From Gaiellaceae bacterium (lineage in GTDB: Bacteria; Actinomycetota; Thermoleophilia; Gaiellales; Gaiellaceae), in contig JAUJMY010000006.1 of assembly GCA_030446625.1 (NCBI GenBank), forward strand, positions 1-64,000: a DNA stretch of 64,000 bases. Direction: 5' to 3'. The position numbers were made by a program, and so were the translations under genes. Shown in pieces: positions 29,660 to 34,670 of this stretch. The notes under the pieces were generated by a model, which saw only the letters and a program-made list of their open reading frames with translations, was not told the origin of the DNA and made no database searches. Position 1 is the stretch's first letter. Each line of letters starts with the position of its first letter.

Positions 29660-30760
29660 GTGACGCCCGTCAACATCGCGCCAGCTACCATTTCCCGCTC
29701 TGTGCAGCCAGATCTGCGCACCTCCTGGAACATCGGCCCGGTCGAGATCCCGACCCGGCTCGTGCTCGCCCCGATGGCCGGCGTGAGCGTCCAGGCGTTC
29801 CGCCGCCAGGGTCGCCGCTTCGGCGCCGGGCTCGTGTGCTCGGAGATGGTCAGCTGCGCGGGGCTCGAGCACCGGAACGAGCGGACGCTCGGCTACCTGC
29901 GCGTGGCGAGCGACGAGCATCCGCTCGCGATCCAGATCTTCGGCTCCGATCCGGCGGTGATGGCGGACGCCGCGCGCATGGTCGAGGCGGCCGGGGCAGA
30001 TCTCGTCGACATCAACTTCGGGTGCCCGGTGCGCAAGGTGACGAAGACGGGTGCGGGCGCGACGCTGCTCGAGGATCCGGACCGCGCTTGCCGCATCGTC
30101 GCGGCCGTCGCGGGAGCGGTCTCGGTGCCGGTTTCGGTGAAGATGCGCCGCGGGCTCGAAGACGGGTCGCGCGCGTGTCTCGCGGTCGGGCCGCGACTCG
30201 TGGAGGCCGGAGCGGCGTCGCTCACGCTCCACCCGCGCTCGGCGAAGCAGATGTACACCGGCACGGCCGACCACGCGCTGACGGCGGAGCTCGTCGACGC
30301 GGTCGACGTCCCCGTGATCGCCTCCGGCGACATCAGCTCACGCGCGCGCGCACAGGCGGTGCTCGCAGGGACGGGCGCGGCCGCGGTCATGGTCGGCCGT
30401 GCCGCGCAGGGCAACCCGTGGGCGCTGCGCGAGATCGTCGACGCGGAGAACGGCGAGCCGTCGCGCGAGGAGGTCGCGGCGGAGCTGATCATGTTCGTGC
30501 GCGAGACCGTCCGCGAGCTCGGCGAGCGGCGCGCGGTCGGATTCCTGAAGAAGTTCTACGGCTGGTACCTCGGCCGGGGCCGATTTCCGAGGCCGTTCAA
30601 GCAGGAGCTCGTGCTGCTCGACACGACGGCAGAGGTCGAGCGCCGACTCCTCGCCGCGGCGCCCGGTGCGGCGGCGCTCGTCGAGCGGCTCGAGGACGAG
30701 CTGTCCCAGGCGGACGAGATCCTGCTCGACATGCCGATCTCGATCTACGGCGGAGGCTGA
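29660..30760 (+). CDS. dusB: tRNA-dihydrouridine synthase (DusB-type)
   Basis: FMN enzyme that reduces uridine in the tRNA D-loop, 366 aa. The TIM barrel begins RLVLAPMAGVS; the catalytic Cys is in INFGCPVRKVTK, and VKMRRGL and ASGDISS provide FMN contacts. The C-terminal helical domain contains GFLKKFYGWYL. The first start is GTG 29660; a GTG near 29702 (starting MQPDLR) is equally possible. It is on the plus strand, divergent from greA, whereas in Bacillus dusB runs with lysS, so it appears locally inverted. Confidence 0.93.
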   Translation: MTPVNIAPATISRSVQPDLRTSWNIGPVEIPTRLVLAPMAGVSVQAFRRQGRRFGAGLVCSEMVSCAGLEHRNERTLGYLRVASDEHPLAIQIFGSDPAVMADAARMVEAAGADLVDINFGCPVRKVTKTGAGATLLEDPDRACRIVAAVAGAVSVPVSVKMRRGLEDGSRACLAVGPRLVEAGAASLTLHPRSAKQMYTGTADHALTAELVDAVDVPVIASGDISSRARAQAVLAGTGAAAVMVGRAAQGNPWALREIVDAENGEPSREEVAAELIMFVRETVRELGERRAVGFLKKFYGWYLGRGRFPRPFKQELVLLDTTAEVERRLLAAAPGAAALVERLEDELSQADEILLDMPISIYGGG

Positions 30761-30827
30761 GGGAGACCGTTTCGCCGCGTTCGCGCCCGGGGATCGAACC
30801 GGGACCGCAACGTTTGAAAGGGGAACG

Positions 30828-31601
30828 ATGGCACAGGTTTCGCTGGAGCAGCTGCGCGCGCTCCGCGGCGGGCCCGTCTACGACTCCGCCGGCCGGCAGG
30901 TCGGCGAGGTTGGAGAGATCTGGCTCGACGAGGACGGCGGGCAGCCGCGCTATCTCAAGATCGCCCGCGACGCGTTCGGCGGGCGCGCGGCACTGGTGCC
31001 GCTCGACGACGCCCGCGCGGAAGGCGACGGGATCCACGTCCCGTACTCCCCGGCCGAACTCGACGGCTCGCCGGACCTCGGCGACGTCGACGCCGACCTG
31101 GACGACGCGCGCCAGAACGAGATCCTCGGTTACTACGGCAACCTGCGCCGCCGCGACGACGCGGAGATCGAGGACGTGGCGCGGACGCATGTGACAGACG
31201 CCGACGTGTCCGTCGCGCGCGAGGCGGACACGGCGCTGACGCGCTCCGAGGAGGAGCTCGTGGTCGGGAAGGAGAGCGTCGCCGCGGGCGCGGTGCGCGT
31301 GCGCAAGTGGGTCGAGACGGAGCCCGTCGAGCTCGACGTCGACCTCCGGCGGGAGACGGCACGGATCTCGCGCCAGCCGATCGACGAGACCGTCACCGGC
31401 GTCGAGATCGGCGAGGAGGAGATCGAGATCCCGCTCCGCGCCGAGGAGGCCGTGGTCGAGAAGCACGTGGTCGCGAAGGAGCGGATCACGGTGGACAAGG
31501 ACGTCGAGATCGAGAGCGCCACGATCACCGAGGAGGTGCGGCGGGAGCGCGTCGACGTCGAGGACGTCGGCGACACCGGTGGTGAGGACCGTGGGTACTG
31601 A
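30828..31601 (+). CDS. PRC-barrel plus DUF2382 (YsnF-like) protein
   Basis: A 257-aa acidic soluble protein. An N-terminal PRC-barrel (about 5-85, GGPVYDSAGRQVGEVGEIW) is followed by a DUF2382 domain (about 135-250, TRSEEELVVGKESVAAGAVR, TVTGVEIGEEEIEIPLRAEE). DUF2382 is found in Bacillus YsnF and in stress-induced actinobacterial proteins, with no known biochemical role. ATG 30828 has AAAGGGG 6 nt upstream. The stop overlaps the next gene's start region, placing it first in a three-gene cassette. Confidence 0.85.
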   Translation: MAQVSLEQLRALRGGPVYDSAGRQVGEVGEIWLDEDGGQPRYLKIARDAFGGRAALVPLDDARAEGDGIHVPYSPAELDGSPDLGDVDADLDDARQNEILGYYGNLRRRDDAEIEDVARTHVTDADVSVAREADTALTRSEEELVVGKESVAAGAVRVRKWVETEPVELDVDLRRETARISRQPIDETVTGVEIGEEEIEIPLRAEEAVVEKHVVAKERITVDKDVEIESATITEEVRRERVDVEDVGDTGGEDRGY

Positions 31602-32451
31602 CTGGGAGCGCGAGCGGCGCGAGGACGCCGTTCGCGACGAGTCCGAGGTCGACCGCGACCGCGTGCGGTACGACGACGATCGCGTGCGGTACGAAGACGA
31701 TCGAGACGACGACCGGGTGCGGTACGTCGACGACGACTCCGACGACCGGGTGCGGTACGTCGACGACGACGCCGACGTCCGCAGGACCGGCGTCGCAGAC
31801 GAGCGCGTCGCCGGAGCCGCGTCGCAGCCCGCCGACGTCGACGCGACGGGCGTGCGGGTGCACCGGACCGACCGCGACGACGTCGGCATTCGGACTGCCC
31901 ACGAGCGATTCGGCGGCATCGACCTCCCGGCGACGCTCGTGGGGATGCTCACCGCTCTCTCCCTCGTCGTCCTGCTGAGCGGCCTGGTCGCCGCGGCGAT
32001 CGGCGCCGTCGGTTACCAGACCGGAGTCGAGGACCAGGCGGAGGAGCTGACCATCGCCGGTCTGATCGGAGGCCTCGTCGTCCTGTTCCTGTCTTTCCTC
32101 TTCGGGGGCTGGGCAGCGGGGCGGATCGCGCGCTACGACGGCGTCCGCAACGGGCTGATGACGGCCGTCTGGGCGATCGTGCTCGCCGCGCTGCTCTCGG
32201 GGCTCGCGGCATGGCTCGGCGACGAGTACGACGTCTTCCGGAACGTCGACCTGCCGCAGTTCTTCTCGCGTGACGCGCTGACCGCCGGCGCCATCGCGAG
32301 CGCGGTAGCCGCCGTGGCGGCGATGCTGCTCGGCGGCGCCCTCGGCGGCGCGTGGGGGGAGCGGTACCACCGCCGGGCGGATGCCGCAATCGCGGCTGCC
32401 CGCTCCGGCGGCATCGACAGGACGGGGGCGGTGACTCGTGAGCGACCGTGA
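31591..32451 (+). CDS. Integral membrane protein with charged DRVRY-repeat N-terminus
   Basis: About 286 aa. The first 85 residues are extremely charged and contain four copies of a DRVRY-(D/V/E)-DD unit. About four membrane helices follow (roughly 115-290, for example GMLTALSLVVLLSGLVAAA, GLIGGLVVLFLSFLFGG). The membrane part resembles TIGR04086/YrzE-like proteins. The start is GTG 31591 just before the upstream stop, or GTG 31579; both overlap the preceding gene. It probably anchors the flanking DUF2382 proteins to the membrane, which is inference from operon structure. Confidence 0.75.
   Translation: MGTDWERERREDAVRDESEVDRDRVRYDDDRVRYEDDRDDDRVRYVDDDSDDRVRYVDDDADVRRTGVADERVAGAASQPADVDATGVRVHRTDRDDVGIRTAHERFGGIDLPATLVGMLTALSLVVLLSGLVAAAIGAVGYQTGVEDQAEELTIAGLIGGLVVLFLSFLFGGWAAGRIARYDGVRNGLMTAVWAIVLAALLSGLAAWLGDEYDVFRNVDLPQFFSRDALTAGAIASAVAAVAAMLLGGALGGAWGERYHRRADAAIAAARSGGIDRTGAVTRERP
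31656..31775 (+). repeat. In-gene degenerate tandem repeat (DRVRY units)
   Basis: A CG(C/G)GTGCGGTACG core with GACGAC-rich spacers occurs four times. The last two copies are nearly identical over about 33 nt (GACGACCGGGTGCGGTACG followed by TCGACGACGAC). The repeats keep the reading frame, so they add or remove whole DRVRY-DD units by slippage. Confidence 0.75.
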
Positions 32452-32944
32452 CCTCGAGCGTGACCCCGATCGCGAGACGCTGATCCGGGAGCAGGGCGAC
32501 GACGACGTTTGGGTCGAATCGGGCGCGCCCGGCTTCGAGCGCGACGCCACCGTCGTCCGCCACGAGGAAGAGCTGCGCGCGGCTGCCGCCGAACGGCACG
32601 CGGGCTCCGTCCACGTCCGCAAGGTCGTCGACGTCGAGGACTACGAGCAGGTCGTCCCGCGCGGGATCGAGCACGCCGACGTCGAGCGGGCTGGCCCGCA
32701 GGCGGCGGACTCGGGCGAGATCGAGACGCTTCCCGACGGCTCCGTCTCCGTGCCGATCTTCGAGGAGGAGATCGTGATCACGAAGCGGAAGGTCGTCCGC
32801 GAGCGCGTGATCGTCCGCAAGCACACCGTGACGGAGGAGCACACCGTCGAGGCGGAGCTGCGGCGTGAGCGCGTCGAGGTCGACGCGGATCCGGGCGTCG
32901 ACCTCGTCGACGAGCAGCCGGCCGTCGACCGCGAGACGGACTAG
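32438..32944 (+). CDS. Stand-alone DUF2382 domain protein
   Basis: A 168-aa acidic protein whose DUF2382 domain reads VVRHEEELRAAAAERHAGSV, then SVSVPIFEEEIVITKRKVV and RERVIVRKHTVTEEHTVEAE. It lacks the PRC-barrel of the first cassette gene. The GTG start lies inside the end of the membrane protein gene (14-nt overlap), indicating coupling. The cassette ends at a strong hairpin 11 nt downstream. Confidence 0.82.
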   Translation: MSDRDLERDPDRETLIREQGDDDVWVESGAPGFERDATVVRHEEELRAAAAERHAGSVHVRKVVDVEDYEQVVPRGIEHADVERAGPQAADSGEIETLPDGSVSVPIFEEEIVITKRKVVRERVIVRKHTVTEEHTVEAELRRERVEVDADPGVDLVDEQPAVDRETD

Positions 32945-32954
32945 CGACGCAAAA

Positions 32955-32980
32955 GAGGGGGCGGCTCGCGCCGCCCCCTC
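32955..32980. terminator. Bidirectional hairpin terminator
   Basis: GAGGGGGCGGC and GCCGCCCCCTC form an 11-bp stem around TCGC. On the left it is bordered by AAAA, which gives a T-run for transcripts coming from the mechanosensitive-channel gene on the minus strand. It lies between two converging units and probably serves both. Confidence 0.7.
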
Positions 32981-33004
32981 CGCGTTCGCTCTGCCGGAGC
33001 GCGC

Positions 33005-33847
33005 CTACGCCGAGCTCGAGCCCGACGGCGGCGGCGTCACGCGCACCGTCGTCGTCGACGTCGGCTCGGGGGCCTGCTCGGTCCCGGAGTCCTGGTCCGT
33101 GCCGCCGTCCTGCATCCGCGACTTCGCGTCGTCGAGCTGCTCGCGGCCGCGCTGCTTGCCGGTCTCGAGGTCCTGCCGGAACTGCTCCTTGTTCTCCTGC
33201 CCCTTCTGGTACGCGCCCTGGAGCAGGTCTCGCGCGACGTCGCGGCCACCGAGGCCGAACGCGAGCGCGGACCCGAGCGCGACGGCGCCGAGCAGGAGCG
33301 TGTAGGTCGTCACGACGATGTCGTGCGCGATCCTCAGCTGCTCGAGGATCATGAACGTCGCGATCGTCATCACGAGGATGGGCGCGACGGTCGCGACGAT
33401 CTTGCCGAGACCCGTGTCCCCCATCACGCGGCCGACGAGCGTCGCGATCCCCGCGGCGATAGCGCCCGCGACGAGGAAGATCGCCAGCGCCGCGATGATG
33501 TTCGGCAGGTAGCCCCACACGGCCGCGACGAACTCCTCGAGGACCTCGATGCCGAGGATCCCGGCCGCGATCGAGACGACGCCGAACATGAGCGCCCAGA
33601 ACGCCACCCGGCTGAGCAGGTGCGACGGCCGCGACGTGATCTTCTGCACGAAGCCGCCGGCGGGTCCGCCGTGAAGCAGGCGGTCGAACCCGGCGCGGCT
33701 GAGCACGCGCTGGAGCACGTTCGCGATCGCCTTCGCGACGAAGTAGCCGATCACGAGCACCGCGAGCGCCCCGAGCAGCCGCGGGACCCACTCGAAGAAC
33801 GTCGCGAAGCCGCGATCGACGGTATCGCCGATGTCAGCTAGGAACAT
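33005..33847 (-). CDS. Mechanosensitive-channel-like TM-helix protein
   Basis: A 280-aa membrane protein with four or five helices, including two TM-helix repeats of the MscS/CmpX-related type (WVPRLLGALAVLVIGYFVAK, YLPNIIAALAIFLVAGAIAA). GSALAFGLGGRDVARDLL matches the glycine-rich pore-lining segment. A polar, charged C-terminal tail follows. ATG 33847 is preferred because AAGGGGAAG precedes it closely. It faces the DUF2382 cassette across a shared terminator, suggesting a common role in envelope stress, which is inference. Confidence 0.8.
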   Translation of the reverse strand: MFLADIGDTVDRGFATFFEWVPRLLGALAVLVIGYFVAKAIANVLQRVLSRAGFDRLLHGGPAGGFVQKITSRPSHLLSRVAFWALMFGVVSIAAGILGIEVLEEFVAAVWGYLPNIIAALAIFLVAGAIAAGIATLVGRVMGDTGLGKIVATVAPILVMTIATFMILEQLRIAHDIVVTTYTLLLGAVALGSALAFGLGGRDVARDLLQGAYQKGQENKEQFRQDLETGKQRGREQLDDAKSRMQDGGTDQDSGTEQAPEPTSTTTVRVTPPPSGSSSA

Positions 33848-33886
33848 CACTTCCCCTTTCACCGTTTTGTCCAGAGATTGTCCCGT

Positions 33887-33908
33887 TTCCCCCGGCGGAG
33901 GGGGACTT
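33887..33908 (-). terminator. Weak hairpin after coaX
   Basis: On the minus strand TCCCCC and GGGGGA form a 6-bp stem around TCCGCC just downstream of the coaX stop. There is no T-run, so it is at best a weak terminator for the folK-DUF2469-coaX side. Confidence 0.3.
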
Positions 33909-33917
33909 AAACGCGGC

Positions 33918-34670
33918 TCAGTCGCGGTGTCGGTCCCAGACGAGGCGCAGTCCTTCGAGGGTCAGGAACGGATCGACACGCTCGATCGTGCGGGCATGCG
34001 GCGCGATCAGGTCGGCGAGCCCGCCGGTCGCGACGACACGCGCGTCACCGCCCAGCTCGGCACGCATCCGCTCGACGATCCCGTCGACCTGGCCGGCGAA
34101 GCCGTACACGAGCCCCGCCTGGAGCGCGGCCGCGGTCGTCTTGCCGATCACGCTCGGCGGCTCGACGAAGTCGACCTTCGTGAGACGCGCGGCACGCGCG
34201 AAGAGCGCGTCCATCGAGATCTCGACGCCCGGCGCGAAGACGCCGCCGACGAACTCGCCCGCGGCCGAGAGGGCGTCGAAGTTCGTCGAGGTGCCGAAGT
34301 CGACGACGATGCACGGCGCGCCGTGACGCTCCGCGGCCGCGACCGCGTTCACGATCCTGTCCGGGCCGACCTGCCGCGGATCGTCGACCCGCACCGGCAC
34401 GCCCGTCCGCGTCCCCGGGCCGACGACGAGGAGCGGCGCGTGCGCCCAGCGCTCCGCGAACTCCTCGTACGAGCGCACGAGCGCCGGAACGGTCGACGAG
34501 AGGCAGACGCCGGCGACCGGCTCCAGGTCGAGGAAACCGCTGAGCGTCACGCCGATCTCGTCCCCGGTCCGGCGCGGCTCGGTGGCGACGCGCCAGCGCT
34601 CGGTGAGCCGGCCGTCCTCGAAGAGGCCGAAGACCGTCTGCGTGTTGCCGACGTCGACGGCGAGCAGCAA
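33918..34670 (-). CDS. coaX: Type III pantothenate kinase
   Basis: First step of CoA synthesis, ATP-dependent phosphorylation of pantothenate, 250 aa. The ASKHA-fold signatures are LLAVDVGNTQTVFGLF, the catalytic region VDFGTSTNFDAL, GVEISMDALFARAARL and VIGKTTAAALQAGLVYG. It follows the DUF2469 gene by 7 nt. coaX near ftsH and the folate genes is shared with Bacillus. Confidence 0.95.
   Translation of the reverse strand: MLLAVDVGNTQTVFGLFEDGRLTERWRVATEPRRTGDEIGVTLSGFLDLEPVAGVCLSSTVPALVRSYEEFAERWAHAPLLVVGPGTRTGVPVRVDDPRQVGPDRIVNAVAAAERHGAPCIVVDFGTSTNFDALSAAGEFVGGVFAPGVEISMDALFARAARLTKVDFVEPPSVIGKTTAAALQAGLVYGFAGQVDGIVERMRAELGGDARVVATGGLADLIAPHARTIERVDPFLTLEGLRLVWDRHRD

Follow-up and report, generated by a model that had tools for sequence, protein, structure and literature searches.

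Why should two DUF2382 proteins, a membrane protein and a mechanosensitive-like channel be encoded side by side in a bacterium of the Gaiellaceae? The locus lies in a stretch of 64,000 nucleotides (hereafter the window), positions 1 to 64,000 of contig JAUJMY010000006.1 in assembly GCA_030446625.1. Four genes occupy positions 30828-33847, three of them mutually overlapping on the plus strand and converging on a single channel-like gene on the minus strand. The first encodes a 257-residue protein with a PRC barrel and a YsnF/AvaK-type DUF2382 domain (PRC-DUF2382; 30828..31601; PF05239, 50.2 bits; PF09557, 84.6 bits), the second a 286-residue membrane protein with a charged N-terminal tail and four transmembrane (TM) segments, here called MEM (31591..32451), and the third a stand-alone DUF2382 protein of 168 residues (32438..32944; PF09557, 60.5 bits). 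Facing them is an MscS-like channel protein of 280 residues (33005..33847, minus strand) with two PF05552 (MS_channel_1st_1) stretches scoring 73.7 bits in all. From the preferred GTG start of MEM at 31591, its overlap with PRC-DUF2382 is 11 nucleotides (nt), or 23 nt if the possible GTG at 31579 is used; MEM and the stand-alone DUF2382 gene overlap by 14 nt. Coordinates, Pfam domains and hydrophobic segments confirm the layout proposed by a first-pass annotation of this DNA, in which overlapping PRC-DUF2382, membrane protein and DUF2382 genes converge on a TM-helix channel. These four genes are a real, conserved and recurrent gene module; its parts are known ones, except for one membrane protein that scores under the curated thresholds of both Pfam and NCBIfam.

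How well is this arrangement kept among close relatives? Among 60 relatives and the window's own genome (61 in all), DUF2382 occurs in ten, in nine of them above the family cut-off. The linkage of DUF2382, membrane protein and channel, whose absence from relatives would have refuted the first-pass proposal, was recovered: all four genes are kept, and are co-directional, in four relatives. Channel, PRC-DUF2382, MEM and DUF2382 follow in this order on one strand in G025, G011 and G048 (in G011 a contig end truncates the channel), and in these three the MEM stop codon is also where the stand-alone DUF2382 gene begins. G006 carries PRC-DUF2382, MEM, DUF2382 and channel, all on one strand, and there a single base separates the channel start from the preceding stop codon. 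The start of the stand-alone DUF2382 gene falls at, or inside, the MEM end in five relatives (L041-L044, L046). Against this one-strand order, the convergent channel of the window is the exception. The window's own genome holds two PF05552 genes in all, both no more than 2.2 kb from a PRC-DUF2382 gene; at the second (L034), MEM is absent and the channel gene immediately precedes another PRC-DUF2382 gene.

Could the neighbourhood reflect descent or chance, with no functional link and with the window's convergent channel as a bystander? That channel does read the opposite way, and most PF05552 genes of the phylum, among the matches listed, are unlinked. The phylum-wide counts speak otherwise. 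In 296 Actinomycetota genomes, searched at E values up to 1e-5, DUF2382 was detected in 42, PF05552 in 88 and MEM in 60. The phylum has at least 102 channel genes; among the matches listed, DUF2382 lies no more than 5 kb from 16 of 102, and 15 of these 16 pairs share a strand, so that the converging channel of the first-pass annotation, correct for the window, is not the usual arrangement elsewhere. All 16 linked channels are among the 52 strongest listed and are spread over 14 genomes, 12 genera and 5 families, where random placement would give about 0.28 linked genes (calculated for the 30 genomes on the list that have both). These linkage counts take no account of shared descent. When 62 channels are placed on a tree, at least nine changes on well supported branches are required to explain the linked label, though contig ends account for some of the "unlinked" labels and the real gains and losses may be fewer. 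MEM is near DUF2382 in 26 of its 105 phylum matches (all 26 with a same-strand neighbour), near a channel in 19 (14 on the same strand) and near both in 12; 12 of the 16 DUF2382-linked channels, among the matches listed, also have MEM. On these counts we consider a neighbourhood without functional link very improbable. In the class (249 genomes, E values up to 0.001, weak matches counted), 25 genomes gave matches to MEM, 19 to DUF2382 and 36 to PF05552; within 5 kb, DUF2382 is a neighbour of 7 of the 45 channel genes and of 8 of the 28 MEM matches, and a channel is a neighbour of 7 of these 28.

Fourteen phylum loci were fetched, of which 11 hold PRC-DUF2382, MEM and channel (L108, L110, L111, L114-L121); MEM is missing from L109, L112 and L113, the first of which is truncated by its contig end. 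Nine of the 14 (L110, L114-L121) belong to one family (f23), assigned to Rubrobacteraceae by the single match to Rubrobacter indicoceani. In that species the module is carried by plasmid NZ_CP031116.1 of 169,605 bases (locus L117; genome G334, contig C2), whose record lists in order a Crp/Fnr regulator, a hypothetical protein, a "PRC and DUF2382 domain-containing protein", which is the architecture of our PRC-DUF2382 protein, and two "hypothetical protein" genes; MEM and channel both bear the latter annotation. Further genes accompany some copies. Pairs of small look-alike proteins of about 80 residues with a VRxVTDxHxN-type start lie beside the module at L114:6531-7059 and L117:7420-7931, and at L117:6411-7301 the channel is followed by a DUF7282 protein that seems to have a single TM segment; DUF7282-like genes were seen by eye after the channel in L115, L116, L119 and L121.

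What are the soluble parts? Both window DUF2382 proteins exceed the PF09557 gathering score of 23 and so carry, above the Pfam cut-off, the domain of the YsnF/AvaK proteins (PF09557, TIGR02271), YsnF/AvaK being its NCBIfam name. They miss the TIGR02271 cut-off of 49.75, at 43.9 and 37.2 bits; the L119 copy scores 65.4 bits. Unlike the YsnF/AvaK family in general, the window copies adjoin a membrane protein and a channel. Net charge is -32 for PRC-DUF2382 and -23 for the stand-alone protein, every one of the seven full-length DUF2382 proteins measured is acidic, from -12 to -51, and a scan of both window proteins found no hydrophobic or TM segment. The AlphaFold2 model of PRC-DUF2382, built on an 11-row alignment, has a confident barrel (block predicted local distance difference test, pLDDT, 85-96 over residues 1-80) and a low-confidence DUF2382 region, containing two 29-residue strands, that is too uncertain for interpretation. 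Its top Foldseek matches are PRC barrels, mainly of photosynthetic reaction-centre H subunits and archaeal PRC1/PRC2; the barrel fold is common to all of these, and the DUF2382 part is not convincingly matched. Within its membrane complex, the reaction-centre H subunit occupies the cytosolic face.

Is there a known role for such proteins? The first-pass annotation gave DUF2382 as having no known function. As to biochemistry this stands, for no biochemical function was found in the literature searched; the domain is nevertheless that of the stress-related YsnF/AvaK proteins. A paper on OrrA and avaKa is said, by its title, to concern dehydration tolerance. YsnF is listed as SigB-regulated and as increased under furfural (PMC5119848), a YsnF transcript is reported up in dehydrated lichen bacteria (PMC6331575) and one is named among those elevated in desiccated roots (PMC11985526), DR1314 is described as carrying "ysnf-like repeats" (PMC2225504), and AvaK is presented as an akinete marker with a PRC domain that is up in an alkane-overproducing strain (PMC7660261). 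The envelope or desiccation-stress role first suggested for the locus fits this literature.

The membrane protein is the least familiar component. No Pfam family matches MEM at an E value of 0.1, and a weak match to TIGR04086/DUF3792 membrane proteins covers its TM region: 16.5 bits against TIGR04086 for the window copy (cut-off 30), and 22.0 bits against TIGR04086 and 19.5 bits against DUF3792 for the L117 copy, all below the curated cut-offs (30 and 31.3). Searched against the PDB, it has no convincing match by structure (best E value 2.1) and none by sequence at an E value of 1. It has four hydrophobic segments, with positive charges placed as for an N-in, C-in topology, and the AlphaFold2 model (13-row alignment) places four long helices within residues 112-144, 150-180, 184-212 and 228-270, with residues 24-95 of the tail below pLDDT 50. 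Five orthologs (G025, G011, G048, G006, G016) are 52-69% identical to the window MEM.

Does the N-terminal tail of MEM hold the DUF2382 proteins at the membrane, as the first-pass annotation proposed for its acidic DRVRY repeats? The repeat itself is genuine: RVRY occurs at four places in the tail, encoded by a true DNA tandem array of 21- and 33-bp units (about 31650..31802, plus strand; best score 152), and the loop charges, read by the positive-inside rule, would put the tail in the cytosol together with DUF2382. It is not a feature of the family. RVRY is missing from all 19 relatives checked, several of which retain the module; the net charge of the N-terminal tail is -15 in the window MEM and -4 to +5 in 15 other MEM tails; and the DUF2382 proteins are acidic themselves, so that like charges would meet. 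We therefore rejected the acidic-repeat tether, which we hold to be scarcely credible, and the DRVRY repeat may be a dispensable local expansion. A second MEM copy in G025 (the genome of L042), at L040:7947-8774, has a charged RVDDRIDNRRDE-type repeat at its end, and we read this as a different charged repeat that appears to have arisen at the opposite end in a relative.

What kind of channel does the module contain? The window channel has five hydrophobic segments followed, after the last, by 85 largely hydrophilic residues. No PF00924 beta domain was found in it, and NF033912 matches it over model positions 178-365 with 81.6 bits, under the cut-off of 100. Compared with the MscS superfamily, it thus combines two PF05552 stretches and a partial NF033912 match with the lack of a PF00924 beta domain, and tension-gated conduction is a candidate activity only. 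CmpX of Pseudomonas aeruginosa, likened here by description and not by sequence comparison, is called an MscS homologue encoded in an operon adjoining sigX, an envelope-stress sigma factor gene; its partner genes differ from those of the window.

Is the missing beta domain a mark of linked channels? None of the 20 linked channels scanned has PF00924, some of these sequences being cut or unreliable (L044, L109, L111), whereas the domain is present in 12 of 40 channels without DUF2382 nearby (Fisher p 0.005); the 40 were drawn from the strongest of the list, not from all 86 unlinked channels, and the G212 channel (L084) stood outside the scan. L030 and L031 were omitted from the linked set; their channels carry the beta domain and lie less than 2 kb from a divergent PRC-DUF2382 gene. 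The apparent contrast is weak, because counting these two as linked gives 2 of 22 (p 0.11) and because 28 of the 40 unlinked channels are also without the domain.

Might PRC-DUF2382 then be a detachable cytosolic domain of the channel, its PRC barrel and acidic DUF2382 arm replacing the beta domain in trans? Such a protein would gate or cap the pore in response to cytosolic crowding or hydration. A single 377-residue reading frame in G510, with PF05552 helices in front and a PRC barrel at residues 276-347 (L146:359-1489, corresponding to G510:C103:858-1988, minus strand), adjoins a MEM gene and would represent the covalent form of the same arrangement. It is one among the 40 scanned channels not near DUF2382, and its locus has no PRC-DUF2382 gene in the gene calls and, by eye, a further short PRC-like reading frame. 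If this fusion is real, the C-terminus of such a channel is a place where a PRC barrel can be carried. We regard replacement of the beta domain in trans as unlikely.

What, then, might the module do? The genes recur together in distant relatives, including a Rubrobacter species, which suggests one working unit. We lean towards a module for membrane and osmotic or drying stress, in which cytosolic PRC-DUF2382 and DUF2382 proteins serve an MscS-like channel in which no beta domain is recognisable, together with the four-TM MEM. From the clustering, and from stress data on relatives elsewhere, we infer that the four products may act together in membrane, osmotic or drying stress. The cytoplasmic membrane would house MEM and the MscS-like channel, the two acidic proteins, PRC-DUF2382 and stand-alone DUF2382, would remain in the cytosol, and the whole would be made under osmotic or drying stress. 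We further infer that PRC-DUF2382 may dock on the cytosolic face of channel and MEM, an idea to which the reaction-centre PRC barrel, as a precedent, and the single G510 fusion lend some weight; through the PRC barrel, the DUF2382 proteins would be held on the cytoplasmic face of the MEM/channel pair. Upon a change in turgor or hydration, the module would adjust or stabilise channel and membrane.

Several observations weigh against such a common role. The parts of the module clearly also live apart: among the matches listed, 86 of 102 phylum channel genes have no DUF2382 within 5 kb, channel and MEM are both absent within that distance of 46 of 77 DUF2382 clusters (contig ends hide some neighbours), and in the class 20 of 28 MEM matches are not near DUF2382. 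The 14 kb at each of the own genome's three other DUF2382 loci (L035, L036, L037) contain neither MEM nor channel, and G026 has MEM with a convergent channel and yet no DUF2382 match in its genome. The fusion is a single gene in a draft genome, with no second full-length match among 39 genomes of its family; in those genomes its best PRC matches, at 42-48% in short reading frames, exceed those to the PRC domains of DUF2382 loci (33-39%). Lastly, clustering alone could reflect mere shared regulation.

Could co-regulation account for everything? The main rival to a common stress module holds that the genes serve general stress separately, the channel in osmotic downshift and the YsnF/AvaK-type proteins as hydrophilic protectants, and that they share promoters, and hence neighbourhoods, and form no complex. 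The SigB regulation listed for YsnF (PMC5119848) points this way, as do the Sphingomonas MscS channels reported to be EcfG-dependent, in a paper whose table also includes a PRC-barrel gene, and the MscS-type YkuT of B. subtilis, which is said to be SigB-regulated. Genes for Crp-type or sigma-70-family regulators flank several module copies. Divergent genes with sigma-70 regions 2 and 4 adjoin the module in L108, L111 and L113; at L030:972-2619 and L031:988-2620, a sigma-70-family gene of extracytoplasmic function (ECF) type and then an MscS-type beta-domain channel gene run divergently from PRC-DUF2382, the sigma-factor gene being positioned between the two. A Crp-type gene precedes the module in L117, and Crp-like genes were seen by eye upstream in L115, L120, L121 and L163. 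The sigma-factor genes recall the sigX-cfrX-cmpX arrangement of P. aeruginosa, in which CmpX is described as being under the envelope-stress sigma factor SigX. In the window neither kind of regulator gene adjoins the module, and no ECF-type sigma factor gene lies beside the channel, the neighbouring genes being dus upstream and, downstream, those for type III pantothenate kinase and a DUF2469 protein. Against co-regulation as the whole explanation, the same set stands in tight, often overlapping order in several families, which is more specific than a large stress regulon predicts, and one channel-PRC fusion exists. We consider co-regulation alone a real possibility, if a doubtful one.

The upstream regions of the window offer one lead. 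From the regions before the two transcription units, the pattern GTTT-N13-17-GGGGA was drawn by eye and then searched; it stands at 30769-30793 (plus strand) before PRC-DUF2382 and at 33888-33912 (minus strand) before the channel. We take this element to resemble the SigB consensus GTTT...GGG. The pattern occurs at 15 places in the own genome, against 4 for a reversed control. Its 3 matches at 2 sites in the window are unremarkable, as 11 of 100 shuffles reached that count, and a looser GTTT form matched only those two of 22 module upstream regions, a result equalled by 8 of 300 resampled sets. The putative SigB-like GTTT...GGGGA element is thus a lead only. Scans of 30600-34000 found no sigma-70 promoter and no consensus terminator on either strand, and an Rfam search of the same interval returned nothing above gathering scores. 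A T-arm-like stretch was noticed by eye upstream of 30828; it has no second strong copy in the own genome (best other E value 0.1).

Between the converging units lies a perfect 11-bp hairpin (32955..32980, no strand assigned), with z of -2.3 for the plus and -3.3 for the minus strand. The first-pass annotation had called it a bidirectional terminator. The hairpin is real; a run of four U follows it on the channel strand only, so that it is terminator-like for the minus-strand transcript, and with the consensus scan empty, "bidirectional" is unproven.

Why does this linkage matter? No earlier description of a DUF2382/MEM/channel linkage was found in the literature searched, whose coverage mostly leaves subscription papers outside, and the module is undescribed as far as our searches reach. 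Several data sets on stress and desiccation include DUF2382/YsnF/AvaK proteins, and the conserved linkage names concrete candidate partners for them. It makes the question of DUF2382 testable in cultured Rubrobacter, a genus in which R. radiotolerans is reported to be extremely radiation-resistant. If true, the module would also offer an example of a channel with a separately encoded soluble part.

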